64,000 nucleotides of DNA, from contig FN649731.1 in NCBI GenBank assembly GCA_000310025.1, positions 721,836-785,835 on the forward strand. The letters run 5' to 3'. The notes under the pieces were generated by a model, which was not told the origin of the DNA, searched no databases, and worked only from the letters and a program-made list of their open reading frames with translations. The stretch is from Ectocarpus siliculosus. Lineage: Eukaryota > Sar > Phaeophyceae > Ectocarpales > Ectocarpaceae. Shown here one piece after another: positions 23,494-39,698 of the stretch. The first letter of the stretch is position 1; each line of letters opens with the position of its first letter. A program made the translations under genes and the position numbers.

Positions 23494-23669
23494 AGAGAGA
23501 GAGAGAAAAGGTGCCCGCAGTTTTCTGATTGGCCAATTTTTTTGACAGGAAATTTCCTTTGGTCGAAAAATCCATGGTCGACCGATGACGTCAGCCACGG
23601 TTGTGACGTCACTTCTCAACAAAATCTCGAAAAATTCAAATTCGCCGTGGGTGACTGATGATTGATGAA
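23494..23669 (+). repeat. Left terminal inverted repeat
   Basis: 176 bp, inverted relative to 39524-39698. It differs at two single bases plus one small divergent patch with a 1-nt indel. It starts with (ag)6 aaaag, then gtgcccgcag, and ends gtgactgatgattgatgaa. It contains perfect palindromes attggccaat (23528-23537), ggaaatttcc (23548-23557), ggtcgacc (23576-23583) and two tgacgtca sites (23586-23593 and 23604-23611). Confidence 0.93.
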
Positions 23670-23987
23670 TTTCATGTCACATCATCAGCTCGTAGCCTGA
23701 TGACTTCGATAATGATTACTATTATTATAGGAGCAGTTATGAAGGAGGAGTGACAAAAAACCGATCACAGGATCTCCTTACTCACGTCACATATAGATAG
23801 CTATTCGGCGGGCCAAGCAGGAGAAGGCGAAAACTGAAAGTTGGATTTGGCTATCTCCCTACTTCCAAACAGTACCCACTTTCGCTCACACTTCTACAAA
23901 TCCGGAGTAACAAACACCGTGGTTGACGATTCGCCCCAATCCGCAGATAAATTTTGTGTCTTACAATTAGATATACAAAACACAGAA

Positions 23988-26555
23988 ATGTTGCACCACC
24001 TCAAAAAAAGACTTGCAGCACCGACGACTAGGTCATCATCCCAACAACAGCCAGGATACAGATGGTGCTACGTGGAGCAGGTGGACCAGGCCGCCCCCCT
24101 CGCAAACAGGAGTAATGGGTGGCGCTACAAAGGGCCACGAGGGGTAATGTATCGTCGCCAGGCGGTCTTCGGAACAGGATACAGGGTTCGTATCTTGGCC
24201 TCGTCCCATGGACCGGGATATAGATGGTTCAACTCGCACCCCGTTGGAGGCGATCCTTCGCTGGTCAACTTTCAATCCTGGGCAAGAAGGATGTGGCGGC
24301 GCGGTTTGGTCCACCCGAGAGACGCCGAGGCGTGGAAAACCGCCTTCATCGACATTGAGGGTGGTGGCCAAGGACAGCTTGTTGTTTCGGCGGCAGATGA
24401 TACCTGGCGAGTGATCCTCTGCTGGGCATCAGCTGGCAGGAGGATCGAAGTCGATCCCCGAGGCATCCCGTTCTCTCTCGTGGACCTTCAGGTCCGATCT
24501 GGCATTGACTCACAGAGTCCGCGTTTCAGACAACTGAACATAGCGTCCTTCGGGCACAGGCTTGTGCAGTATACTCCCATGACCACCTTCGGCAAAATAT
24601 GGCAAGAACAACTCCCCGGAGCCTGCCTCGCTGTCCTCATCGCCGACGCGTGGCGCGACAGTCAAGTCGACCTGCTGACGAGGGAGCGGAGGAGATTTGG
24701 ATTCCGCGATGTAGACCTCACCGGTGCGTTTGTGATCTCATCTGGTGGTGGTCGACCAAAAAAGGGTTCGCCTGTACAAAACAAGAACGCTCTTGACGGC
24801 GGGAACTACTTCCGCAACCTGTATTCGATCCTGCTGGAGCGAGACATCGGGGAAGAAGAGTTCGACACATGGGTTTCGGGGGATACCAAACCACCTCCAC
24901 TGACGTTACGCCATCTCCACAAATGGCTCAATACGAACAAGGCTAACGTCGTTGTGTGGTCACACAGGGGCACTGGCGCCGATGTTGCTGGGCCATCTGA
25001 CGAGAAAACGAATCTCCGACCGCCCACATTGCACGTTGGGGTTCGTGAGGGACACGTTTACCGGCTGGTGCTCGTGGGGCCTTGGAGGGAGCGGTTTGGA
25101 TCACCTATAGACGTGACCATCGAAAACGGCATTCGAACCCACCGTAGATTCCGTCGAATTGCCGAGACGACCGAAGAGGAAGAGGAACCGGATAGGACTG
25201 GTTGTGGAACCAAGACATTCTCGTGTGTCGCTGACATTGTGAGTGACATCCTGGCCAACAATCAAACAGAGGAGGAAGACCACCACCAAGAGATGGCGCA
25301 GAAAAAGCGGAAGCGTGAAAAAGCATCAGAGCCTACGACGTGGTACGCACCGCCGGGAACGGCTCTTGACGAACTGATGCTCCACCTGCACCTCGTTGGA
25401 GTCTCTTGCAGCGGTAGGCTTTCCAACTACAGCCACTGGGACTCCCTGTCGTTACCGGCACACGGTATAACCATCCGAACCTGGTGCAGTGCGAGCATGG
25501 GCGGGCTCGACCCTGATGAGTTCGAGCCCGACCAGGCGACAAGATTGATCGAGCTGCATAATGCGCTGGGTCTAAAGTTCTACCGTGGTGTTTTGGATTT
25601 TCGAGTGTCGAGCCAGTACAGCCAGTCTCTTCTCGCCCTCCTTGAGGTATGCTGGCGAGGGCCTATCGTCGGGGCGGAGGACGTGTCCGGGAGTTCATAC
25701 GGGAGGGAAGACTGGCAGTGTGACATCAACGGGGCACACACGGCGGCTCTGATGAACATGGAGACGGTGCCCGTTTTCGGCCACATGGACGAAGTGGAGG
25801 AGTTCGATGGACACGATATTGAGGATTGGACCCTGTACATTATAGAATTGGATGCACTCGACGAGCCAGACGTTTTCCTGAACGCGGATGTGACGCCAGT
25901 CTTCGGTCGAAACTATAAGCGATACCTCGACCTCATCGACACCGCGCCTCGTCATAGAGTCACCCACTTCGTGCGGCCCTCTAGGACCGTCGGCAGGTGC
26001 CACATTCCCACCCTGGTGAGAGACCTGCTCGAGCATGAGCTGGCTGATTCACTCCTCGAGGATGCCGACTGTGCACGCAAGTTCAAGAAAGGGATATTCG
26101 TGCGAGCCAGCGGCATGTTGCAGCAGAGATACGCAAACAGGATAGATGCCGTCATGGTCACGAGCTGTGACGAGGCTTCGGCTGTGGGTGGAAAAGTCGT
26201 CCCTGTCCTGTGCGAGGTCGATCGCGCGAAGGCCGAGCTTCGGACGGGACAAGGGGAGTTTGGAATCGAGGCACTTCGCACCGGTGATGCATACCTTTGT
26301 TTCGACGCAGAACGGACTTGGTATAGAGATGGCTTCTGGGCGTTAGGTGCGCTCATTCTCGACGAAACGCGATTGCGAGTGTTGGAGGCGAGGAACGCTC
26401 TCGAATCGTGCGGCGCGTCCGACTTTAGTTACCAGTGTGACGCAGTCTTCTTCAGGGGACCTTGCTCGGTTCGGGAGGAGATGAGACTCTGCTTCGGCCA
26501 TTTGTTTAGCGGCGACAAAAAAACTCCGGCACTCTCAAGTTCGAACCAGCCTTAA
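23988..26555 (+). CDS. Diverged family B DNA polymerase (protein-primed-like)
   Basis: The frame is open from 23841 but has no ATG before 23988; an in-frame stop precedes 23841. An upstream exon is possible. Numbering from 23841, motif A is at about 627-640 (CDINGAHTAALM, for DxxSLYP). It is followed by VPVFG and a YIIELDA strand, as in viral/transposon pPolBs. Motif B is at about 747 (KFKKGIFVRASG, for KxxxNSxYG), so the usual Asn and Tyr are replaced. Motif C is at about 864 (YQCDAVFF, for YxDTDS), after a typical GALILDETRLRVLEARNAL helix. The catalytic Asp of A (628) and the second Asp of C (867) are kept; the first is Gln. I could not place 3'-5' exonuclease motifs with confidence. The stop comes only about 45 residues after motif C, so the thumb is missing from this frame and appears in the next one. 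Expected role: replication of the element. Confidence 0.7.
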   Translation: MLHHLKKRLAAPTTRSSSQQQPGYRWCYVEQVDQAAPLANRSNGWRYKGPRGVMYRRQAVFGTGYRVRILASSHGPGYRWFNSHPVGGDPSLVNFQSWARRMWRRGLVHPRDAEAWKTAFIDIEGGGQGQLVVSAADDTWRVILCWASAGRRIEVDPRGIPFSLVDLQVRSGIDSQSPRFRQLNIASFGHRLVQYTPMTTFGKIWQEQLPGACLAVLIADAWRDSQVDLLTRERRRFGFRDVDLTGAFVISSGGGRPKKGSPVQNKNALDGGNYFRNLYSILLERDIGEEEFDTWVSGDTKPPPLTLRHLHKWLNTNKANVVVWSHRGTGADVAGPSDEKTNLRPPTLHVGVREGHVYRLVLVGPWRERFGSPIDVTIENGIRTHRRFRRIAETTEEEEEPDRTGCGTKTFSCVADIVSDILANNQTEEEDHHQEMAQKKRKREKASEPTTWYAPPGTALDELMLHLHLVGVSCSGRLSNYSHWDSLSLPAHGITIRTWCSASMGGLDPDEFEPDQATRLIELHNALGLKFYRGVLDFRVSSQYSQSLLALLEVCWRGPIVGAEDVSGSSYGREDWQCDINGAHTAALMNMETVPVFGHMDEVEEFDGHDIEDWTLYIIELDALDEPDVFLNADVTPVFGRNYKRYLDLIDTAPRHRVTHFVRPSRTVGRCHIPTLVRDLLEHELADSLLEDADCARKFKKGIFVRASGMLQQRYANRIDAVMVTSCDEASAVGGKVVPVLCEVDRAKAELRTGQGEFGIEALRTGDAYLCFDAERTWYRDGFWALGALILDETRLRVLEARNALESCGASDFSYQCDAVFFRGPCSVREEMRLCFGHLFSGDKKTPALSSSNQP

Positions 26556-26632
26556 AGAACCCGCTGTGTGGCGAGAGGAGGGTGTTCGAAGGCATCGAGG
26601 TCAAGCTATCACTTGATACGCTACCACCAGCC

Positions 26633-28249
26633 ATGAGGCAAATTCCTTGCCCACCGAAGCCCCATCTGCAGGTCATTCCTCTGTGGGGTGGCGTCGGCGC
26701 CGGCTTCAGTTCGATGGGAGACGCGCACAACGCCTGGTGTTCTCTAGAGAAAAGCACCAAGCGCAATCTGTGGCCGGAAATATGCGAGGCCGAGTCACCT
26801 TCGAAACTAGAAAGTTTACTCCGCGGCTTGTTGTCTCAGCAAGGTTCAAGAGTGGTGTGTGCGGTGACCGGAGAACACGGAGGGGCGGGGAAGAGTTATT
26901 GTGCCTTCCGCGCTGCGAAGAAAATCTTTAAGACGGGGCTGGTCGTGACCCTCACCAATAGTCTGAGAACGTCCTTTACAGACATGCCATCCGGATGGAG
27001 TGTAAAGACCGCCGATCACCAGCTCGGTTTCTATCTAGGTAATGATTCAGAAATGAGGAAGACGGCGGGGTCGATACGAACGCTCAAGGTCGACGTAATC
27101 ATCATTGAAGAAGCTGCCTATATGCCTCTGCGGACCTTAAGCATGATCCTGGCCGCTGCTCGTTGTAGCGGTACCCACGTGATCGGGACGTACGACACGC
27201 ACCAACTCCAGCCCGTTTGTGAGAGCAGTGGCATGTCGATTAGCAGCGACAACGTCGACAGGAAAGTCATCCTCGAAAAGGCCTTCCCCACATGTTTTCA
27301 CGTCTTCGCGCGCAAGCGGGATAAAACTACCGAAGAACAAGTGGAGATGGACGACGGTCTCTTGTACATTCTGGCCGCAGGAAACAACAGTCAAGAGGCG
27401 CAGACTCGAGCCATCGAGAGGTTTGGTCGTGAATGTCCAACGGGCAACGACCCTAGCCCTTCAGAATTTCACCTCGCTTACACTAGAGACTGTGCTCGAT
27501 TCCACGCCTTTCGAGGTTTGCCGGGGTGCAACGCACCTGGTGGCTGGGATGCGCTGGGGCGTACAACGGTTATCGGTGCACAATACCGGGACCTCGGGAA
27601 CCTGGGCAAGATTCACAAGAATCACACCTACAACATCGTTCGATCCTCAGCAGATGAGATCGTTGTCGCGAGCGCATTCGACTGTGCCGTCAGTCTGGAG
27701 GAGACGTCACTTTGTAGAGCGGTGGCAGAAAACTTGTTCGACCCCCCGGGATCATGCACGGTACACGCCGTCCAAGGCCGTACGGTGGAAGGGAGGCTGA
27801 TCATACACCAGGCTCGACACCGTCACGCTGACGTGCACTGGCTTTACACGGCGGTCAGTCGAGCGACCGGACCGTCGAACGTCAGGGTCATCGACGATGC
27901 TCACCGCCGCGATAGCAACATGTCCGACCGAGAGAGGGCTTCGTGGGTTTCTAGGAAGGTTTCCAGTTATATCTACGCCGACATTGCGTCCGGGCGTCTT
28001 GGATCTGATGAGGGGGGACAGCATAGAGAAGCTCTCGCCCAAGAACTACACCGCGCCTATCGGGGGACGTGCAACTTTTGTCACCATGAACTGGTCTGGG
28101 CCGTTTACAGCGAACGCCAGCCGACTCTAGACCGTCTTGACTGCGCTTTGCCTCACACGATCGGTAATGTGGACGTGAAGTGCTTGAAGTGCAACCGAGC
28201 CAGAGGAAGTCTGGGGAGGGGGAAGTCAAAGAAGAGGAAGACAAGTTGA
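26633..28249 (+). CDS. SF1 helicase with C-terminal HNH-like module
   Basis: The frame is open from 26510, overlapping the polymerase end; its first ATG is at 26633. With residue 1 at 26582, the motifs are Walker A GEHGGAGKS (97-105), Walker B VDVIIIEE (170-177), motif III GTYDTHQLQPV (202-212), motif V CTVHAVQGRT (392-401) and motif VI WLYTAVSRA (420-428). These define a superfamily 1 helicase of the Pif1/RecD type. Residues 497-541 have CNFC, LDRLD, PHTIGNV and CLKCN, the layout of an HNH/zinc-finger nuclease module. The first 80 residues upstream of Walker A read like the missing polymerase thumb. This suggests an original polymerase-helicase fusion. Expected role: unwinding during element replication; cleavage by the tail is inferred only. 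Confidence 0.78.
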   Translation: MRQIPCPPKPHLQVIPLWGGVGAGFSSMGDAHNAWCSLEKSTKRNLWPEICEAESPSKLESLLRGLLSQQGSRVVCAVTGEHGGAGKSYCAFRAAKKIFKTGLVVTLTNSLRTSFTDMPSGWSVKTADHQLGFYLGNDSEMRKTAGSIRTLKVDVIIIEEAAYMPLRTLSMILAAARCSGTHVIGTYDTHQLQPVCESSGMSISSDNVDRKVILEKAFPTCFHVFARKRDKTTEEQVEMDDGLLYILAAGNNSQEAQTRAIERFGRECPTGNDPSPSEFHLAYTRDCARFHAFRGLPGCNAPGGWDALGRTTVIGAQYRDLGNLGKIHKNHTYNIVRSSADEIVVASAFDCAVSLEETSLCRAVAENLFDPPGSCTVHAVQGRTVEGRLIIHQARHRHADVHWLYTAVSRATGPSNVRVIDDAHRRDSNMSDRERASWVSRKVSSYIYADIASGRLGSDEGGQHREALAQELHRAYRGTCNFCHHELVWAVYSERQPTLDRLDCALPHTIGNVDVKCLKCNRARGSLGRGKSKKRKTS

Positions 28250-28331
28250 TTGTGCCGTGATCGACACGTAGCTTTAATGCCCAGAACCCCAAGAAATAAT
28301 ATATGTGGTGTGTGTAACCAACTATCAAATC

Positions 28332-29429
28332 ATGAACAATCTTATTTCACGGTGTGCGAGTCGGCTGGAGGAAAACAAAGACCCAGTACAAGTTCTTGAT
28401 GTCTTGAGAAGCCTGCATCCAGGCTCTCTCAGCAAAAACGTCAGGCGAGTCAGGCGAGAATGGATGCAAGTATACGGTCCCAGCCACAACGACGGCGCTA
28501 TCAGGAAGGACCTCAAACGCATACTCAAAGTCATACAGAGGAAGGCGTCGTCGCTGGCCAAGAAAACCTCAAGTGATTCAAGGAAGAAATATAGCTCGAA
28601 ACAACTAAAAATAGCCGAGCGACGCATCGTTTCGTTTTCTAAGTTGGATTTGTTCGGCAAATGGGCAACGCGAAACTCCATTCATTCCCGGAAAGAGTCC
28701 TTCACTGGGCTTGTTGATATCGACGCGCTCCTACGGAAGGTAAATATACTTCCACCTTACGTTTCCAAGCTGGAACTCACACCGGAAGAAAAGAGCCTTC
28801 CAAGGAAAAGACGCAGAGAGGCTTTGGAAGCGAAGTGCGACAAGGGTATCAAAGTAGTGAACGCAAGCAAGCTCATCGATCTCATGGGAGCAATCATCAG
28901 ATACCCCAGAGCACATCATTTCGAATTAGCGTGCGCTTTGTCGTTTGCTTCGGGGTTGGGGCTGCCTGAGCTTGTTGGTAGTGCTGTTCAATTTTCGCCC
29001 AGTTGTCATGGCACCCACGAAGTAGATATCAAGCTGGGTGGTGTTGAGGGACACCCGAAAGGAACCACCTGCCGGGTACCATTGTTATGCGAATACGAAA
29101 ACTTCGTAGAGGGAGTAAACAAATTACGTGGCATGAAGGAAACGTTCAATCTCACCCCTGCCGAGGTCAATCATCGATACAGTAAATCAGCAAATTTGTA
29201 TGCCAGAAAGCTGCTTCCGGATGTCTGCCAGGGCGGTCATGTATTCAGTGATTTGAGGACCCTGCATGGGGCAGTTAGCCATGAAGTGTTCACGGGACAC
29301 GAGCTGGAATTGAGTGATTGGGTCAAAGTTGCACGTGGTGGTCGGAGTTCTCCTGCCCTAAGCCGGAAGTGCTCGGTTGTGAGAGTGAAAGGGATCAAGG
29401 AAGACGATCACAGGCATTGGACATTTTGA
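28332..29429 (+). CDS. Tyrosine recombinase / telomere resolvase-like protein
   Basis: 365 residues from the ATG at 28332; the frame opens at 28305 with GTG. The N-terminal 180 residues are basic and helical. With residue 1 at 28305, a helix ALSFASGLGLPELVGSA (about 211-227) fits box I of tyrosine recombinases (tGLRisEl), but Gly219 occupies the catalytic Arg position. Box II fits HVFSDLRTLHGAVSHEVF, with Arg318 and His321, more like protelomerases than XerD. The C-terminal SRKCSVVRVK segment falls where the nucleophilic Tyr is expected and has none. The protein is therefore a divergent or inactivated recombinase; alternatively the catalytic residues lie elsewhere. It follows the helicase by 82 bp on the same strand. 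Expected role, if active: integration, excision or end resolution of the element. Confidence 0.5.
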   Translation: MNNLISRCASRLEENKDPVQVLDVLRSLHPGSLSKNVRRVRREWMQVYGPSHNDGAIRKDLKRILKVIQRKASSLAKKTSSDSRKKYSSKQLKIAERRIVSFSKLDLFGKWATRNSIHSRKESFTGLVDIDALLRKVNILPPYVSKLELTPEEKSLPRKRRREALEAKCDKGIKVVNASKLIDLMGAIIRYPRAHHFELACALSFASGLGLPELVGSAVQFSPSCHGTHEVDIKLGGVEGHPKGTTCRVPLLCEYENFVEGVNKLRGMKETFNLTPAEVNHRYSKSANLYARKLLPDVCQGGHVFSDLRTLHGAVSHEVFTGHELELSDWVKVARGGRSSPALSRKCSVVRVKGIKEDDHRHWTF

Positions 29430-31272
29430 ATTCACGCTCCAGACGTCTTATCGTCATCCGGCCCTTGGCCAACCGCCCAAACACAATATTCATTTTTGCC
29501 CTTGATAGCGTAAACACCCACGTTTCGTTTTCCCAGTTGGGGGAAGCACTCCGTTGTCTACTCCATGCTGGCGCCTGCGTAGGCAACACGGTCAACACAG
29601 TGAACTCTAAACCCGAAGGCTCCTAATTGATCACCTTTGGTGACCCAGATAGAGGAAAAAAATGCGCACGATCGCACAATATCCACACACAGTACAATGA
29701 TACAATCAAGTCACAAGAGAACTGTGTTCCCGACTAAAACCCCAGGCACTCGTTCATCTTGACCATCATGTATGAACGAACACACAACGCTTTTTGTACT
29801 CCAAAACATTTCGCATACAATGCATGGTCGAAATCCCACAGTAAAGTTACGAATAACCGCCGACTAATCACCTTCAAAACCACCTCCGAGTGAGAATATA
29901 CACGCTGAATCTGCCGACCAAAATATATATATATGTATCGGACTCATAAATGATAAAGGGAGACGAAAAAACTTCAGTTGGCACGACTCAAGCTAATCTA
30001 TGCAGGAAGCCTGCGGGTGGTCTCTTTCCATTCCCCATCACTTCAACGCCACCGAAGAGCCATTCTTCGTACAAGTCAGAGCTCGTTTTGACTTCCATGT
30101 ATGAACCCACAACACCACTTGCGGTAGACATCAAATGTTCTTATATCTAATAATACAAATAATACCAAATCAAAGTTTCGAACAAAACAATCACAATCGC
30201 TCCGTCGACCCGGCTCATTTGAACATACATTTGATGACTGGGTCGAAATGTAACACACCAGAGCACCCTAACACAGGGCCCATTGACACAACAACATCGA
30301 TTCGCATGCACGAACCCTAAACAGCCCACGGGTAGCCATTGACCATCTAAAGTACGGTGGGTGGTCGTAAAAAATGTCCCTCATGAGGTAAATTGAAGAC
30401 ACAGTCGAGCACAGGAACAAAACGACAAAAACACGAGGCAAAATAATTGTAGTTGGTTGTGCAAGTCTGCTCATTGCTCCGTCGCGCCAGCCATCTCGAG
30501 CCGTTTTTGCAACGTTTCCATGAGTATACATATGCAACTTCTTGCCTTCTCAACGTCACAACGCGCACACGTCCGAAGTACGCGTCAACATCGGTAAATC
30601 TCCACAAACGACAAAATTCAAAAGGGCTCACACGACCCGCTAATGATACATACATGTATACTCGGCCCAGCGAGTACGCACCGCCAAACAATCTCCCATC
30701 CCGTTCTACGGTTGTGTTGTTGTGCGGACCGGGCAATTTGCTACACGGAGAGAGAAGGGTGATACCATGATTGCCTTTGATCCAATCAAAGCCAAAAAGG
30801 GTGTGGCATTTTGATCCCCTAATGTTTCATTGTTCCCCCCCGCATACACGATAAACCCACAAGTCGAATACGCCGAACAACACTTGTTCGACGGCTACCG
30901 ATCGCGTGTCAATCGAAATGGTCGAAATCCAACCGTAAAATCACCAATAATCCAAGACAAATCACATTCAATCGGGTGGCGATCGTTAAATCAACCTTCA
31001 AACCATTCCCCATTGAGGACACAAACACTGAATGTACCTGAAATCTACTACATACATGGTAACGGGAAACGTAAAAACACCACATCTCTCGTGTTCTACT
31101 AGACGGTAGATAACCGGATTCAAGTGTCGGTGATTCGACCTGGGCGTAGGGTGCTAAGTATGCTTGCCACCGATCGATCCAATCGGGGCCATGTGCCGAT
31201 ATTCTCGATATTTCTCCCCTCCAGACTTCATCTGCGAGGAGCGCTATCTACATGGTGGAAACGAGAACCCTA
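29430..31272. other. AT-richer non-coding interval inside the element
   Basis: Visibly more AT-rich than the flanks, with no coding pattern on either strand. Two diverged blocks (about 29820-29935 and 30921-31045) share atggtcgaaatcc(a/c)a, a cagtaaa/ccgtaaaa step, atcaccttcaaaacca and a later ctgaat motif. This points to old duplicated sequence. It separates the convergent recombinase gene and minus-strand gene. Confidence 0.5.
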
Positions 31273-34200
31273 TCACTCCTTCCTCCCCTTGGCGCGGCTC
31301 TTTGCCGGAGCGCCGTTGTGGCGTTGGCTCTGCGATATCCTTTGTACGATCCTCCTAGCGAGGATGTACTTCAGCGCCCAGTGGCACAGTCGCCATGACT
31401 CGTTCACCTTCTCGACCGGCACACAACCGCCGAGTTGGCACCTCGGGTGACCCTCAGTTTCAATGCTGCTGTGGACGGGCAGGATGAGGTTGTCGTGCTC
31501 ATCGAGCTGCCACGTTGATTTGCCCTTCGTCACACCCGCCTCGCTGAAGTTTGGGATCTCGCACCCGCCCTCCGTAATTGGCCCGTCCCCAAACCCGTTT
31601 TTGCCGGCAAACTTGTCGTGCAGCTTCTGGGGGAGGCCAACGCCATCCGCCCCGAAGCCGAAGCAAAAGCCATGCGCTCTCACGGGGTTGAGTTGGCCGG
31701 GGATGGGCTTGCGCATTTTCGCTGCCGCACCGTCGCTGGGGGCGCTGCCCACCTGATTCGCCCCTGTTCCCAAGGCCGCACCTTTTTGTCACGCGTTGAC
31801 GATAACATCCGACGAGAAGAAATAAATGGATATACATGTAAGCCTGGGATCATATACACAAAACGCAGGCACACGAAAAAAGTGACTACACATCAAAGAA
31901 ACACGAGCGATCGACCTGGACGCGAAGTGCTGCCCCAATGCACGCAAAAGGAGGTGGTGTTTTTCTTTTTCGTGACAATGCCTCTGTGGAATTTTCAAAC
32001 GCACACGAGCTTTCGGACGCACTCCTTCGTAGCAGCTGAGTGGGCGCGTTCGACGCATAACAATAACAGCAGCAGCAGCAGCAGCAACAACAACAACAAC
32101 GATCAAGGAATGACGTACCTCCGGTCTTGCCTATGCGTCCACCACCAAGTCGAGACAACGATGGGTGATGTCGGGAAAACGAAAGAACGGGTAAGTAGGC
32201 GCGAGGGAGGGGATCGAGAGAATTCATTTGTAATAGCGAATGATGAGAGAAAAAAGAAGCAATACCCAAGAACAACATGGTCCATCGCACGCCTTGGTAT
32301 CGAGGCATTCCGCTCATGAGGGAGCGGGGATGCCTTGGTTGCGTCGGGTGCGGGGCACACGAATAAGGGAGGCTCGACGATAAGGCAACAACAACAACGA
32401 TCAGGGAATGACGTACCTCCAAGTCGAGAGAGCGATGGGTTGATGATGTCGGGAAAACGTAGACTCACGAAAAAAGTGACTACACATCAAAGAAACACGA
32501 GCGATCGACCTGGACGCGAAGTGCTGCCCCAATGCACGCAAAAGGAGGTGATGTTTTTCTTTTTCGTGACAATGCCTCTGTGGTAATAGCGAATGATGAG
32601 AGAAAAAAGAAGCAACACCCAAGAACAACATGGTCCATCGCACGCCTTGGTATCGAGGCATTCTACTGAGCTCGGGGCGGAGATGCTTTGAGTACATGGG
32701 ATGCCTGTGCACAACTTCAAAGACGGGGGAGCAAATGACTCGACTACAAGGCAATACCAAACAACACCAACAACCTGTTTAGGATATTACCACACTCTCA
32801 CCGGCGACCGAGGCGTTCTTCACGTGCTGGTGGCCGACGCAGGTGCACTCCTCGGCACTCTCGCACGAGCAGCCGGTGATGTTGCAGGAGTTTGCTGAAA
32901 AATATGAGTGTCAAATACACGCGGCGAGAGGGAGGGAATCATCTGAATTCATTGGTAATAGCGAATGATGAGAGAAAAAAGAAGCAATACCCAAGAACAA
33001 CATGGTCCATCGCACGCCTTGGTATCGAGGCATTCCGCTCATGAGGGAGCGGGGATGCCTTGGTTGCGTCGGGTGCGGGGCACACAAATAAGGGAGGCTC
33101 GACGATAAGGCAACAACAACAACGATCAGGGAATGACGTACCTCCAAGTCGAGAGAGCGATGGGTTGATGATGTCGGGAAAACGTAGACTCACGAAAAAA
33201 GTGACTACACATCAAAGAAACACGAGCGATCGACCTGGACGCGAAGTGCTGCCCCAATGCACGCAAAAGGAGGTGGTGTTTTTCTTTTTCGTGACAATGC
33301 ATCTGTGGAATTTTCAAACGCACACGAGCTTTCGGACGCACTCCTTCGTAGCAGCTGAGTGGGCGCGTTCGACGCAATGACAAAAACAGCAGCAGCAGCA
33401 GCAACAACAACAACGATCAAGGAATGACGCCTCCGGTCTTGCCTATGCGTCCACCACCAAGTCGAGACAACGATGGGTTGATGTCGGGAAAACGGTTGAA
33501 CGAGTACAAGAGGTGAGGGCATACCACCACCAACGACAACAATAGGGGTACCCACCAACGACAGCATCTCATCCAACGGGGTCAAACGCACGCAACCGTA
33601 TCAACACATCAAATGCACAAGGGAGCGGGGATGCAGAGAGTAAAACGGGTGCGGGACACACCAGTAAAGCTGTAAATGTTAGTATCAAGTACACGCGACA
33701 CAGGAAGAGTAGATCGTGGGGAAAATAAACGCTAGCCTTTGTCAACTCACGCAACAGCAACTATAACATCATTACATGCAAAAAGAAACGTTTATCAGGG
33801 GCTAGCAGGGAAAGCAGATGCTACAAGGTGCGGAATCATCATCATCATCATCAACAACAACAACAGGTTGCATTCATACACAACCCTCACCGCCTTCCCC
33901 CTTGCGTTCGTTGGTGCTCTTTTCCGCCCCTCGCTCCTTGGCGGTGTAGTTGACGTTACCCCGGAGTGGTGTACGCCCGCTGTCGATCGTCCGCTGGTGG
34001 GCGGCGTGCTTCACTGTCTCCTCCCTCAACGTGGCAATCGCTGCATAGTTCGGTTGCACAGGGCGAATGACGCAGCATGGGCGAAAGGCAAAACATTTAT
34101 GTAGTAACGAGGAAGATGCTGAGACAGCCCGAAATTGAGTGGGACGACGTGTGGTATTCTCGCTTCTGAACTAAACGCACCCACACTGCTACACCTCTCA

Positions 34201-35984
34201 CACCTAGAACCCACAGAGTGGACCAAGAGAGCGGGGACGCTGTGGGACACTACGTACTGTAGACACAAAAATTATGAGCATGCGCGGGGAAACATTTCAT
34301 CATCATCAACAACAACAACAACAACAATAACAACAACAACACTATCTCACCCTTGGTTGAGGGTGTCATAGTGACGCCTTTTCTCTCTCGCTTAGAACAC
34401 CGGCAGCAGTGACAACAACAGCAGCAGCAACAACAGCAACAACAGGAGCAACACTGTCTCACCCTTGGTTGCCGGGGTCGAGAAGTCCCCTGATCGGCCG
34501 ACCTCCATGCCGCGGGTTGTCTTGTCGTGCTTCCCAAGGTTCTTGTAGCCAGAGAAGCAACCCCATCGCGTCACCATCGCCACGAAGAACGGGCCGCTCC
34601 AGCAATATTCCCAGTTGCCGATGACAGTGACCAGGTACACCCAGGGCTCCCCGCCACGCGTGGACCCCTCCTTCGTCTTGACGAGCGACAGCCCGTGTTG
34701 GCCTCGTACCTTCGCCAGTCCAACCACGTTCTTGTTGAGCCAGGGTCCTGTCTGGTACAACGTGTCGCTGAGGCACCGACGGAAAAGGAAAAAAGAGTAT
34801 TGGCGAAGAGTGCAAGCTGTTGCTATTGCACACACACTCTAAGCAAGTGGGAGCAAAACCAAACCCAAAGAAGACACCCGAGGACAAGCGCACGCGCTTT
34901 GCAAAGCGAAAATGCCCAAGGAGACCCTGACCTGCGGGCCGAGAGCACGAACGCGTCGTACAGGGGGATGATCATCGTGGAGTCGGTGACGGTTGTCGCG
35001 GCAACTTCGGGGGTGTTCAGTCTCTGGTCTTCTTCCGAACCGAGGACGACCGTACGTCTCGCCCCCCTTTGTGCCCCACCGATCACTCCTCCGTCGAAAG
35101 TTATCAGTACCTTGTCGTCAGCCTGTACACGCCCGCTACGGTCAACATCCTTCCCTGCTCCCGAGTCGTGAACTACCCTAACTACAAGCCTCGGCACCGC
35201 AATGTTGTTCGCGTTTTTGAACAGCCCAGCGTGTTCGGGGGATTGAGCCTCGGGAAACGCGGCCTCCATCTTGGTCTGCTCTGCTGGCGTCTCCCAGTGA
35301 AAGAGGCTGCCAAGCGCGAGGAACTTGTGCAGCTCGTCGCCGTACGGCTGCTTCGTCCGGAGGGTAGCCCTGATGGCGTCGTTTCGACTAGCGCGCTGGA
35401 ACGAGGGGGCGTCCTTGCTGGGGATGACACCAGGGTGGGGCTCATCTTCGTTGCCGTCTGTCGCCGGCGGCAGGCCATAGTCGAGGCGCCTGCGGAATAT
35501 TTCGACGGCCTTGCGGTAGTGGGACGCCGGGACGACCATCACCACGTCCCCCTTCCCCTTCACGGAAACGGCCCGCACCGCGACGTTCCCGGGCCTGGTG
35601 GGGATGTCCGCCACGAACGACGTACCAGTAGTGGAGAATGCCGTCTGTTCCCACTGCGGAACGTCGGGGAATGAAGGGACGGAAGGCGGTAATGTGTTTC
35701 GAAACGAAGCAATATCTTGCTGGTGTCTTGCTGGTCGAATGCATATGCCACACAATCTGGTAAAGCTGTCGATTGAAAGCAACCATCACCGACATCGCGG
35801 GGGGGCTGGACCATCCTCTTCGCTGTACAGTACTCACGATCAAGGGTTCCTCCTCTTCTAGGTCGTCAACCTCCGCCACCTCGGCAAACGGCAAGTCCCG
35901 GAAGAGGTCCAGATCATCGCTCTCGTCGGCGCGAGCACGTTTTCGCGACTGGTGGCCACGTGAAATTATGAAAGGCACGCACAT
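31273..35984 (-). CDS. Element cargo gene of unknown function, six exons
   Basis: Minus-strand exons read as 35984-35838, 35653-34932, 34767-34463, 34040-33891, 32894-32802 and 31763-31273 (stop). All five introns have GT..AG ends, and the phases agree (0, 2, 1, 1, 1), which is strong support. The product is about 635 residues. An N-terminal hydrophobic stretch MCVPFIIS is followed by a basic RKRAR and an acidic EVDDLEEEEP run. The second exon has beta-rich segments (VAVRAVSVKGKGDVVMVV). The third has a Trp/aromatic-rich stretch (WEYCWSGPFFVAMVTRWGC). The fifth is cysteine-rich (SCNITGCSCESAEECTCV), and the C-terminus is basic (KSRAKGRKE). I do not recognise the family. A capsid or attachment protein is conceivable for such an element, but nothing proves it. 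The third coding base is often G or C, so composition is typical for this window. Confidence 0.65.
31865..33480. repeat. Nested repeat array in introns of the cargo gene
   Basis: One block, cgaaaaaagtgactacacatc through the (cag)n/(caa)n tract, occurs at about 31872-32110, 32466-32586 (partial) and 33190-33420. A second block, aatagcgaatgatgagag through gatgtcgggaaaacgtag, occurs at about 32232-32465, 32585-32665 (partial) and 32957-33187. Long stretches are nearly identical. The copies lie on both sides of the 93-bp cysteine-rich exon at 32802-32894. Confidence 0.85.
34341..34485. repeat. Duplicated splice-donor segment with CAA repeats
   Basis: The donor end of exon 34767-34463, read on plus as aacaacac then tgtctcacccttggttg, recurs at about 34341-34366 as aacaacac then tatctcacccttggttg, each with a CAA/CAG microsatellite beside it. 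The inner copy could act as a second donor or as the end of a small extra exon (phase 1 would fit). Confidence 0.7.
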
Positions 35985-38900
35985 CACCGTCAGCAGCAGG
36001 GCGCGAGAAAGCGGCCTGTGGGCATCACTTACGTGTGTCTCTTTATCTTCAGGGTTGATCCTAGCGATTTACCCCCGCTCTTTCAACGATGAATAAAACG
36101 TGGTATATTTCTCGTTGGCGTCTTCATCGTGAAAGGCAGAAAATACGGAGCATGATACATGACAAAACCATCTCCGAATTTCGAACTCCCCTGGAGCAAC
36201 TAAGTTGACGCACGGCAATCTTGGTATCGACAGCCTAGAATCTGAAGCATGGAACAGAGGGGGAGGAAGAAGGGAACACAAGCAGGTGGGTGACACGCGG
36301 CCTCACTGGCGTGTACGCAGGATTATCGACCATGTAAGACAACGTATACTTTCCTTCTCTGGAAACTTGATGCTGTAAGCGGTGGGCATCGTTAGCTCGG
36401 GTTGGAACGGAATGGAGTGAAACCAGGGTGGGCTTGCTTGCGCTTGGAACAAGTAAGTTCAATCGCATACCTTTCCTTTTCGAGTCACAGAAAGAACGGC
36501 GTTCATTCTTTTGGCGTCAGATACACGACGAAGAGAGAAAGGAGAGTGTGAGGGGTGGAGGCGACAGCGATCAAAAACGGAAATCCCTTGTGAGGCGTGT
36601 TGGATGGTTTGAGCGGGAACATGCGTGCTAATTCGTCTGCTTACGATATCCCTTTCGGCACCCCCCACCACCCCGGTCAGTCGACGGTAACCACATACTT
36701 CACAAATCCCCAATGTCGCAGGCTCATTCGTCATTATTGTCACTCTGTTCGCCTAGAATCAGCCTAAAAATGACGCGCACAACAACAGCCCACTTATTTT
36801 CTGCTTGCACGAGAACGGTCCTATTCTGTTTTCGAGGGTTCGGTCACCATTTCGAAAACATGTTTGTAGCCCATGACGGAAGGCGAAGTTGGGGTGACAC
36901 AGAAAGAGCGTCGGCGCACTCCATGTTGGTAAGTGAAATGGCGTGAATGAAGCAGGCCAGGGAGGGCTTCTGTCTACGCAATCATACAGAGAAGAGTGCA
37001 CATGTACTGGAAATCCCCAAGAAATACCGAATCAAACGCCTAGACTAATGGAAGCAATAACTCTTTCACCACGGATCGAGGGAACTAAATACAGCTATGT
37101 ATGACGGTGGACAGCAGCGTTGATCACTCTCACCCGTGCTCCGGCCGGCTTTCTGCCCGTGTTGGGCGAGGCGGCGGGGGAAAGTGGAGGGCGTCGAGTG
37201 GATGCCTTTCTCGGCTCCCTTGGTGATTCGAAGGCCTATTGGATGCAAGATAGCAAGGTGCACACGGGTGATACCGTGAGTGTCGTAAGCGGACTGTGTA
37301 TGTCTGTTGAGTACAGTGAAGATTTCGGGGATTTTTAATGACACGATGTGAGCACCACAATCGGCATAGGGGTTATGCGTCTGTATATCATTCGCCACTC
37401 TTACATCTTCGCTTGGTGGCGTGTTCCAGTTGTCGTCTGTCCCCCGCTTCGTTGGCGTAGTCTCGGGATGTGCCATCGCGGTCCTGGTGTTTGGAAGCAG
37501 GCAGTCGGATGCGCGGAAGCAAACAGCGTTCAGTTTCGTCGACGGGCGTTGTTGTCCATCCAGTTTCGCTTGATGTGAGTGGAGTCTAGTGAATGGGCTC
37601 GTGGAGCCCAGTGAATGGGCTCGGCGCCCCCCAATGTGTTTGACTACATACAGCACTTGGTCAACAGTTGAAGTGATTTTATATTCGAAACCGCCCCTCA
37701 TCGCTACAGGACAGTCTGGGTTGAACCAGTGTAAATGAATGTTGTTCACGCAACAAGTTTGGCGATTAAGTGTAGACTACATTGTCATTTTCTCGTGGTG
37801 ATACGTTCCAAGCCCTGTTCCAACCATTGTGGTACCGGGACTGTGCTGATGCAGTGAAAGCGTAAGTTCGACTTCAAGCTACGGGGGAAAAGTTGTACAG
37901 TATGGCTTGAATATCTTTGGTGTGCGGGGAGAGAAACGAAGAGGGAGACAGAGAGGGCAGACAGATGACGGACAAAGAGACAGACCGAGCGAGGGGAGAA
38001 CGGGACGGTACTACGAAATCACCTGTTCGCCGAGGGGTCCGAGCGGAAGCTTCTGCAGCTATGAATACCGAGGGCAAAACTTGAGCGGGGCAGCAAACGG
38101 TTGCCAACGCCCTTGTCGAGCACACACTTGGTGGTGCGCTCTTCGGGATGTGTGACAAGAAACAGCCGAATCTACTACGCTGCGAAAATACGCGTAGATG
38201 TGCAGGCTGGAGGACGACACACACCCGGCCTTTTGATTTGTAAAGGAGCAAACCGAGGTCATAGTATCCCCCTGAACTCTCAGAGCACTGCTGGGTGGGC
38301 TTTTTGCCTGGGTACTATGGCACACGAGATCCAATGACCACGGGAAGCGTCATTGAAGGGCAGAAACATCTCCGACCGACATGCACTGTTTGAAATTCAA
38401 CTTGTGTTGATGATCGCTGCTGCGAGTGCAGCCTATGAGCAGGGGAACGTGCTGATGTGACAACCCTCGAGAAGAGTACCAGATGAACCATCAGGACAAC
38501 AGCTCGTTTGGGCTGGACACGCGGGTGTGCGGCCTCGCCACTGCTGTTGCATCACACATACACAGATCCCTCCGCGATGAATCTGCTTTGTAGCGAAAGA
38601 AACTCTTAAACTCTCTCGCTCGCTCTGTCTCTCTATCTCTCACTGTCTGCGTGTGTGTCGTCCAAGTGAACCTCTCCCTCATGCGCGGAATGCAGGGAGG
38701 CGGAAAGCCACACTGCCCTGCTCACCTGTACTCTTGTTCGTTGGTGGGTCGTAGTGATGGTTGTTATCTGCGGTTGCGCGTTTTGGGAGGTGGGGGCACA
38801 GAGGACAGGAGTCGACGGGGTACCCACCAATGTATATTCAAAAATTCAAACGTGTTTCGGAGGTCGCATGCAATACCGAAGACGACTACAAGGCGTAGGC

Positions 38901-39523
38901 GAATCCACCGGATTTTTATCAGTGACGGCCACCTTCGCCTCAGTCACATGAAGAAGGTTCCGCGGATACGGTTATAGTCTAGCAGTCATGTTAAGAATCA
39001 CTTATGAAGAAGTTGGAAGGATAGTCTATAGTCTAGACACAGCAGTAGTAGAGATTACGTATATATTGAAAGTGAGCCTCTCTCGAGCAGGACGAAAACA
39101 AGGAGAGTAACAGGGGTGACACATCAGGCGGTGATGATCTGTATACCTATCCCTCTTAACAGCAGTTATTACTTGCTGTTCAATGACAACCAAAGTGGAG
39201 TCCTCGACCGGGGTGCAATATAGAGAGAGGTGGGGTAATGAGCGGGTGTGACTGCTGTGTTTTCCTGTGACGATTGTTTCGCATCAAGATTTGCCTCTCT
39301 CTCCTGCGTATGTGTGTGCAATTTTCTGAAAAATCCGTCCACCCGTCCGTCATGTGGATGTGGTCGGTAAAGCCTGGATCGATTCACGCGACAACTCGCT
39401 CATCCGGCACGATCGATGCTTGATGGGGTTTGGTTCCTTCGATAGTCCCGCAGGGCACGAATGAAAGCATCCGTGAGGTCGGCGATGCGTGGATGATGTT
39501 GTTGTTGTAGGTGGGCTCATCAG
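35985..39523. other. Right part of the element, no confirmed gene
   Basis: I could not define a gene here. A short plus-strand frame at 37120-37338 has coding-like composition (for example AFLGSLGDSKAYWMQDSKV) and ends in TAA, so it may be the last exon of a small gene. An overlapping minus-strand frame of 227 codons (37749-37066) is probably its shadow. Short near-palindromic tatagtctagc/tctatagtctaga motifs occur near 38976-39040. Confidence 0.4.
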
Positions 39524-39698
39524 TTCATCAATCATCAGTCACCCACGGCGAATTTGAATTTTTCGAGATTTCACGAGAAGTGACGTCACAACCGTGGCTG
39601 ACGTCATCGGTCGACCATGGAATTTTCGACCAAAGGAAATTTCCTGTCAAAAAAATTGACCAATCAGAAAACTGCGGGCACCTTTTCTCTCTCTCTCT
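39524..39698 (-). repeat. Right terminal inverted repeat
   Basis: 175 bp, the inverted partner of 23494-23669. Read outward it ends actgcgggcac, then cttttctctctctctct. The attggccaat palindrome of the left copy is broken here by one base (attggtcaat on the complementary strand). The other palindromes are kept. Confidence 0.93.

Follow-up and report, generated by a model that had tools for sequence, protein, structure and literature searches.

A family of large inverted-repeat elements in Ectocarpus combines a fused replication gene with a telomere-resolvase-like gene lacking the catalytic tyrosine

Two inverted repeats in the genome of the brown alga Ectocarpus siliculosus raise the question of what kind of element they enclose, and how such an element could copy itself. 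The stretch analysed here, referred to as the window, comprises 64,000 nucleotides (C6:721836-785835 of the 189-Mb Ectocarpus genome; C-numbers denote contigs of that genome). The element occupies window positions 23494-39698, measuring 16,205 bp from terminal inverted repeat (TIR) to TIR. It belongs to a family of large mobile DNA elements that is probably virus-derived. The reading favoured here, with a probability of roughly 0.6, is that of an integrated, self-replicating, transpoviron-like element family without recognised capsid genes, carrying a Tlr1-like replicase and a non-cutting relative of the telomere resolvases; in the window copy, the replication frame is broken.

Self-comparison of the window divides the inverted arms into 23494-23617 / 39575-39698 (98% identity) and 23622-23669 / 39524-39571 (100%). 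Across the TIRs, 170 of 175 aligned bases are equal (97.1%), in line with the 175-bp inverted repeats at about 96% of the original prediction, and the compact plus-strand replication block that it described is present at 23838-29429. Searching the genome with the 176-bp window TIR recovers further copies, with at least 58 matches at E<=1e-3; the count is a lower bound because 40 of 118 first-look candidates were scored, and 17 of the 58 matches are pieces of one array (C9:175244-177220). An inverted TIR pair occurs in 7 of the 13 regions examined (window included), the TIRs lying 4.4-16.2 kb apart. The lengths of these paired copies are: window, 16,205 bp; C3, 15,597 bp; C9a, 11,346 bp; C18, 11,952 bp; C54, 12,294 bp; C9b, 12,530 bp; and C15, 4,356 bp, the last being a short copy without the core genes. 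The C17 copy measures 15,217 bp and has a right TIR arm of only 52 bp. At C12, C1, C483, C139 and a second C18 place, no proper TIR pair is found within the fetched stretch. The TIRs of the C18 copy are identical across the 258 bp compared, suggesting that this copy is probably young.

The left ~5.9 kb of the element is common to the seven large copies compared (71-97% identity, with gaps in C9a) and holds two genes. Searches of the same genome return 27 matches to the helicase part of the first and 30 to the resolvase-like product of the second, eight of the latter being full-length open frames. The features of the window copy are:

23494..23669, plus strand: left TIR, with tip AGAGAGAGAGAGAAAAGGTGCCCGC
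23988..26555, plus strand: first frame of the fused replication gene, with ATG at 23988; N-terminal region and DNA-polymerase-B-like palm; broken near 26525
24789..24827, plus strand: OTU-like motif ALDGGNYFRNLYS, with Asn at the place of the OTU protease Cys
25650..26495, plus strand: palm-like region; motif A DINGAH, motif B KKG..V..SG..QQ, motif C Y-x-C-D-A-V (second Asp only)
26510..28249, plus strand: second frame of the fused gene; SF1 helicase and C-terminal HNH
26849..27868, plus strand: SF1 (Dda-like) helicase domain, AAA_30 to UvrD_C_2; Pfam E 2.7e-4 and 1.9e-4, below cut-offs
28025..28246, plus strand: HNH / endonuclease VII-like tail, CxxC ... CxxCN; profile matches in relatives
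28332..29429, plus strand: telomere-resolvase-like protein, 365 amino acids (aa), related to ResT/TelK and the C16 provirus gene; without catalytic Tyr, and here without Arg I
29430..39523, no strand: variable right arm, common to C3 and partly (67-70%) to C9a; other compared copies share repeats only
31860..33478, no strand: direct repeats inside the right arm, 198 nt x3 and 300 nt x2
32279..39698, no strand: right-arm part 99.6% identical to C3 (left core 90.8% to C3)
34859..36017, minus strand: arm gene, broken into three frames; its homologue at C9:185034-186299 is uninterrupted (422 aa)
39524..39698, minus strand: right TIR, 97% to the left TIR

The polymerase and helicase-HNH parts had been read as two separate genes in a three-gene block. 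This arrangement is rejected, as the two parts form a single stop-to-stop frame of 1,412-1,485 aa in C17, C18, C54, C12, C455 and C457. In the window, a one-base length difference from C17 near 26525 splits the gene into frames of 905 and 579 aa, and the frame is broken also in C3, C9b and C271. Comparing the six open frames two by two gives dN/dS values of 0.09-0.40 for 14 of the 15 pairs, and the remaining pair is saturated; the fused replication gene is under purifying selection.

Motifs and profile matches place three domains in one chain, in the order palm, SF1 helicase and HNH, the palm being recognised by motif only. The helicase matches Pfam AAA_30 and UvrD_C_2 below cut-off, and in relatives it matches the Dda-like helicase profile phrog_325 (E 4.5e-11 for one from Tribonema, 1.4e-10 for two from Ectocarpus). 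The C-terminal HNH/endonuclease VII domain is matched in relatives by phrog_1035 (E 2.7e-4) and phrog_15463 (E 3.5e-4). The HNH piece of the window has no Pfam match; in a PDB search its best hit, at 1.6e-4, is to a complement receptor, with no stretch passing alone, and the rest are chance matches. Palm motifs were counted among 53 sequences with strict expressions, on many partial gene models and with single misses unchecked: motif A is found in 41, motif B in 24, and motif C, as (Y/F)-x-C-D-A, in 35. The element protein thus keeps motifs A and B and has a motif C without its first Asp. These motifs suggest that the fused protein contains a palm of the protein-primed PolB type, which would confer polymerase activity; in a Tlr1-like helicase, a palm fold of this type would be expected to include TPR1 and TPR2. 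Upstream, by comparison with the OTU consensus, Asn stands in place of the Cys in 28 of the 28 proteins (of 53) that show the OTU-like motif, and the His is replaced in several.

Tlr1-like helicases are described as having this same organisation: vOTU, palm, SF1 helicase and a C-terminal GIY-YIG or HNH, with a motif C that lacks the first Asp (PMC11071308). A dinoflagellate polinton-like virus (PLV) has an SF1-PolB fusion in the reverse order, as reported in PMC12721341. Ectocarpus siliculosus is among the species in Figure 7 of PMC3671162, which presents Tlr1 protein trees (A, SF1 helicase; B, Tlr1 6F). An Ectocarpus homologue was therefore probably seen in 2013; the figure legend does not assign the species to a tree, and the passages of that paper concerned with these proteins describe no element.

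The second core gene encodes a protein whose sequence points to a distant telomere resolvase relative without the cutting residue. Of 12 members, 10 match the ResT/TelK catalytic domain PF16684 at E<=10, the best at 2.1e-5. Seven of the scores are 19.8-24.6 bits, under the 27-bit cut-off; the window and C17 copies have no PF16684 match. A PDB profile search places ResT at E 0.0048 and TelK at 0.36, with alginate lyases at 0.9 and above. Within the genome itself, PF16684 exceeds its cut-off at C16:4529765-4530238 (60 bits), whereas three places in elements score below the cut-off. The C16 gene (342 aa, C16:4529288-4530316) is the nearest relative found of the element protein: in a single comparison, the C3 element protein is 27% identical to the C16 protein over 311 columns (E 2e-18), and a C-terminal W-T-F is common to the C16 protein and several element proteins. 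Over 42-44% of its length, the C16 protein also matches protelomerases from the phages phiHAP-1 (E 5e-4) and PY54. It has Arg, Lys, Arg, His and Tyr at the places that we take to be catalytic, naming them after ResT and TelK and reading the residues off the C16 protein. The C16 gene looks intact and, from surroundings seen within 3.5 kb, lies in a probable phaeovirus-like provirus; the protein adjoining it looks VWA-like.

The element proteins have lost this active site. No Tyr stands at the aligned place in any of the 10 element rows. Counted ungapped from the conserved Trp, the place holds Ser in 5 of 10 and Lys in the other 5, these having Cys one place on; with the gaps set by MAFFT, Leu lies opposite the Tyr column in all 10. 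A later Tyr (place 29 after the Trp) occurs in two rows and is not conserved. The Arg I place has Leu in the window and C17 and Arg in the other 8 rows, whereas the Arg II place has Arg in the window, C17 and C9b and Lys in the remaining 7. Lys is absent from the provirus KKK columns in every row, although the loop is gapped there, and the His place, by ungapped count, is kept in 3 of 10. A working tyrosine recombinase is rejected on these grounds, namely the missing Tyr in 10 of 10 rows and changes at most other catalytic places. The earlier description as a tyrosine-recombinase/protelomerase-like protein therefore holds at the level of family, through the sub-threshold PF16684 matches, and fails for the activity. 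The gene is nonetheless under purifying selection despite the lost catalytic Tyr, with dN/dS of 0.17-0.37 in 11 of 28 pairs and saturation in the other 17.

The right arm behaves differently from this core. To the right of the core, the window shares only the TIR with C18, C54 and C9b, and short repeats with C17; with C9a it shares two stretches at 67-70%, one of which is the arm gene. C18, C54 and C9b share arm parts among themselves. In its core, the window copy is closer to C17 (97.5%) than to C3 (90.8%), whereas its arm (32279-39698) is 99.6% like C3. The window copy is thus a mosaic, and arms have been exchanged between copies. The resolvase-like gene also swaps partner: between window and C3 its dN is 0.31 with dS saturated, as against ~91% DNA identity in the fused-gene region. 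Comparison at the DNA level, which could overlook diverged genes, shows no arm block present in all seven large copies. The direct repeats at 31860-33478 hold CAA/CAG-rich tracts.

As originally predicted, no capsid, rve integrase or ATPase gene is recognised by Pfam in the core and arm open reading frames (ORFs) scanned, nor is a protease; arm ORFs have no Pfam match better than E 0.03 (not all small ORFs were scanned). Transpovirons share zinc-ribbon and transposase-subunit genes with Sputnik (PMC3671162), and the arm ORFs scanned have no Pfam match to genes of this type, at which no search was specifically aimed. The minus-strand arm gene, found in three copies only, had been taken to contain introns. 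Its pieces lie in three frames, with an overlap of 19 nt or a gap of 17 nt between neighbours, and the C9 homologue is one 422-aa frame, which fits frameshifts better than introns.

No target-site duplication (TSD) is found: direct repeats abutting the 7 paired copies measure 0-4 bp (C9a 4) with a mean of 1.14, against a mean of 1.45 and a maximum of 4 in a mispaired control (the outer right TIR was used for C9b). TSD-type transposition is rejected on this comparison. Empty sites for C3 and C15, sought as joined flanks in the same genome, were not found. Direct duplications that start at a TIR tip are found at three loci. C455 has a tandem duplication of 1.45 kb at its left end, at 99.7-99.8% (L041:220-3063), and at the C9b right end 534 bp is duplicated at 99.3%, with an extra 26-bp tip. 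Before the C9a element lie 19 TIR-tip matches, with unit lengths of 18, 28, 54 and 76 bp and above. This stack (L011:386-2721, left of C9a) is in direct orientation and of variable length, many units starting with GAGAGAGAGAGAAAAGG, and belongs to a diverged TIR subfamily; it looks like repeated jumps back to the tip. In C23, two TIRs whose tips point outward form a 238-bp foldback (L051:379-616) that resembles a miniature non-autonomous derivative. Fused TIR tips would form a palindromic target like a replicated telomere; no exact case is found, and in one imperfect case, at C26, TIRs from two subfamilies face each other tip to tip, the matches being separated by 6 bases (L050:433-642).

A cycle consistent with these data would involve: copying of the element by the replicase as a linear molecule, primed from the TIR ends; nicking or cleavage of branched or palindromic TIR junctions by the HNH domain; binding of TIR ends or single strands by the inactive resolvase, which may protect, anneal and recombine them; and re-entry of linear copies into chromosomes by end joining or tip-mediated recombination, without a TSD. 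For the resolvase, there is precedent among its relatives. TelA with a mutated Tyr keeps its single-strand annealing activity, located in the N-terminal domain (PMC7861564), and TelN shields hairpins from a nuclease (PMC12624138). Together, these reports make a non-cutting role at DNA ends plausible.

Several observations weigh against this reading of a self-replicating, transpoviron-like family. The palm is recognised by motif; it matches no polymerase profile in Pfam or PDB, and comparison by hhalign with 21 phi29-like polymerases (26 of 36 loci taken, 5 dropped for interrupted frames) gives a probability under 1%. The vOTU Cys and His, both kept in all PLVs and transpovirons analysed in PMC11071308, are not found as a pair in the 28 proteins that show the OTU-like motif. 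The same paper reads the HNH tails of Tlr1-like helicases as inserted homing endonucleases, in which case the HNH would have no role in the cycle. The likeness to Tlr1 and transpovirons is drawn from published descriptions rather than from aligned sequences, and the element is known here from chromosomal copies alone. IMG/VR scans for relatives of the element proteins gave none, and none of the 12 resolvase-like relatives is named as coming from yellow-green algae. At the TIRs, a pattern search found no exact tip-to-tip palindrome, although a control pattern was not found either, and the sole imperfect case joins TIRs that are 77% and 96% like that of the window. Solo TIRs with the genes unlinked elsewhere, the arrangement that would have spoken against an element, do not describe the paired copies; however, partnerless TIRs occur in fetched stretches, and for the core genes at C271 and C457 no TIR lies among the matches listed or in their fetched stretches, which end close to the gene.

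One rival explanation would make the element a phaeovirus satellite, replicating in linear, hairpin-ended form on phaeovirus reactivation; the viral telomere resolvase would resolve TIR junctions in trans, while the element's own inactive copy binds or competes at the ends. The nearest relative found of the element resolvase is the C16 gene, over the PF16684 cut-off and with all five catalytic residues present; telomere resolvase genes occur in all Ectocarpus phaeovirus proviruses of one study (PMC13236599); and transpovirons parasitise giant viruses (PMC11071308). Brown algae, Tribonema and Heterococcus all have relatives of the replication protein, and phaeovirus-like recombinases are reported from them too (PMC13236599). 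This shared range fits a satellite, but would equally fit plain descent in one algal clade, and the resolvase-like gene was not found in yellow-green algae. None of the listed TIR matches (at least 58) lies near C16:4.53 Mb, no resolution site common to virus and element has emerged, and the case is known from genome sequence alone. Dependence on a phaeovirus is doubtful. The fuller version of this proposal is held just as tentatively: a nuclear, vertically inherited satellite of PLV/transpoviron-like ancestry, which captured a phaeovirus-type resolvase, lost its cutting chemistry and uses the viral enzyme in trans, with the right arm as exchangeable cargo. A decayed endogenous PLV, its capsid genes lost or beyond recognition, would account for the Tlr1-like architecture, which occurs in PLVs (PMC11071308), and for large copies of 11-16 kb with TIRs. 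This is unlikely given the purifying selection on the core genes, the lack of an arm block shared as DNA by the seven large copies and the arm ORF scans, with the limits given above for both.

Two further proposals concern integration. If HNH nicked the target and the fused palm extended from the nick with the help of the helicase, the presence of nuclease, helicase and palm motifs in one chain would be explained, as would the missing TSD; the direct end duplications starting at the tip also look like template jumps via GA-rich microhomology. Such target-primed copying is very unlikely, however: it predicts one-sided truncations where copies with both TIRs are common, and the literature takes the HNH tails for inserted homing endonucleases (PMC11071308). 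Alternatively, the resolvase-like protein could be the transposase, with Ser or Cys replacing Tyr and recombining TIR tips into target DNA. The ungapped Ser in 5 of 10 rows, the Lys followed by Cys in the other 5, and the selection on the gene would agree with this. In the MAFFT alignment, however, the Tyr column holds Leu throughout and the provirus KKK columns lack Lys; the Arg II place is occupied by Lys in 7 of 10 rows and the Arg I place by Leu in the window and C17, while His is kept (ungapped) in 3 of 10. We know of no such nucleophile switch in the telomere resolvase family, and a transposase of this kind is highly improbable.

The self-replicating, transpoviron-like family thus remains the preferred reading, and its range can be outlined. 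Relatives of the fused protein are found in Ectocarpus species, Pylaiella, Hapterophycus, Laminaria, Tribonema and Heterococcus (28 and 40 proteins in two overlapping searches); one database protein from Ectocarpus siliculosus matches at 100% identity across 70% of the query. Among the 12 resolvase-like relatives, one is attributed by name, to Laminaria digitata; with none named from yellow-green algae, the two-gene core is established for brown algae only. Phaeovirus-like recombinases have been reported from brown algae, Tribonema and Heterococcus alike (PMC13236599). An IMG/VR scan with the provirus resolvase gave no match, and phage tblastn gave two weak matches at E 6-7 for query P0033 and none for P0049. 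The main text of a review of brown algal giant viruses mentions no polinton, transpoviron or satellite (PMC12993054), and that of an Ectocarpus transposon survey no Maverick, Polinton, PolB, Crypton or HNH (PMC12477816). No description of such an element was found in the open-access literature searched, which agrees with the suggestion that this TIR family with its own replication gene is an undescribed one.

If this reading is correct, Tlr1-like replicators, known from PLVs and giant-virus-associated transpovirons, have also lasted in the chromosomes of multicellular algae, in many copies and lacking capsid genes, and a mobile element of eukaryotes encodes a telomere resolvase that is conserved yet does not cut. 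Ectocarpus phaeoviruses are inducible (PMC13236599), and in this tractable alga hairpin ends, capsid loss and the interplay of virus and satellite would become testable. The family may offer a new way into the replication of such elements and their coexistence with giant viruses.

Among known systems, Polintons/Mavericks and PLVs are likewise large TIR elements with PolB-type replication. In contrast to them, the present element has no recognised rve integrase, ATPase, protease or capsid gene in the ORFs scanned and no TSD, which in Polintons/Mavericks is 6 bp. Cryptons and other tyrosine-recombinase transposons have a gene of the same superfamily and no TSD, whereas the element has large TIRs, its own replication protein and no intact recombinase active site. 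The telomere resolvases (ResT, TelK, TelN and the phaeovirus gene) are represented by a protein similar to the provirus protein over most of its length, with PF16684 below cut-off; the element sequences differ by the absence of Tyr at the aligned place in 10 of 10 and by changes at most other catalytic places. Transpovirons are linear DNAs carried by giant viruses; they have TIRs, as the element does, and measure about 7 kb. Like the element, they have few genes, none recognised as a capsid gene, and a Tlr1-like replication protein; unlike them, the element resides in an algal nuclear genome in many copies, the large ones 11-16 kb long, carries a resolvase-like gene and exchanged right arms, and has no demonstrated association with a giant virus. 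The Tlr1-like helicases of Tetrahymena Tlr1, PLVs and transpovirons have the same palm-SF1-HNH/GIY-YIG order, a motif C without the first Asp and an OTU-like motif upstream (PMC11071308). The element differs in the replaced OTU-like Cys, its likeness is one of description, and its named relatives found so far come only from brown and yellow-green algae. Tlr1-like helicase elements and transpovirons are closer counterparts than the Polinton first proposed for comparison. While the replication protein resembles a known type, the open-access literature searched held no description of a chromosomal element that joins such a protein to an inactive telomere resolvase and exchangeable arms.

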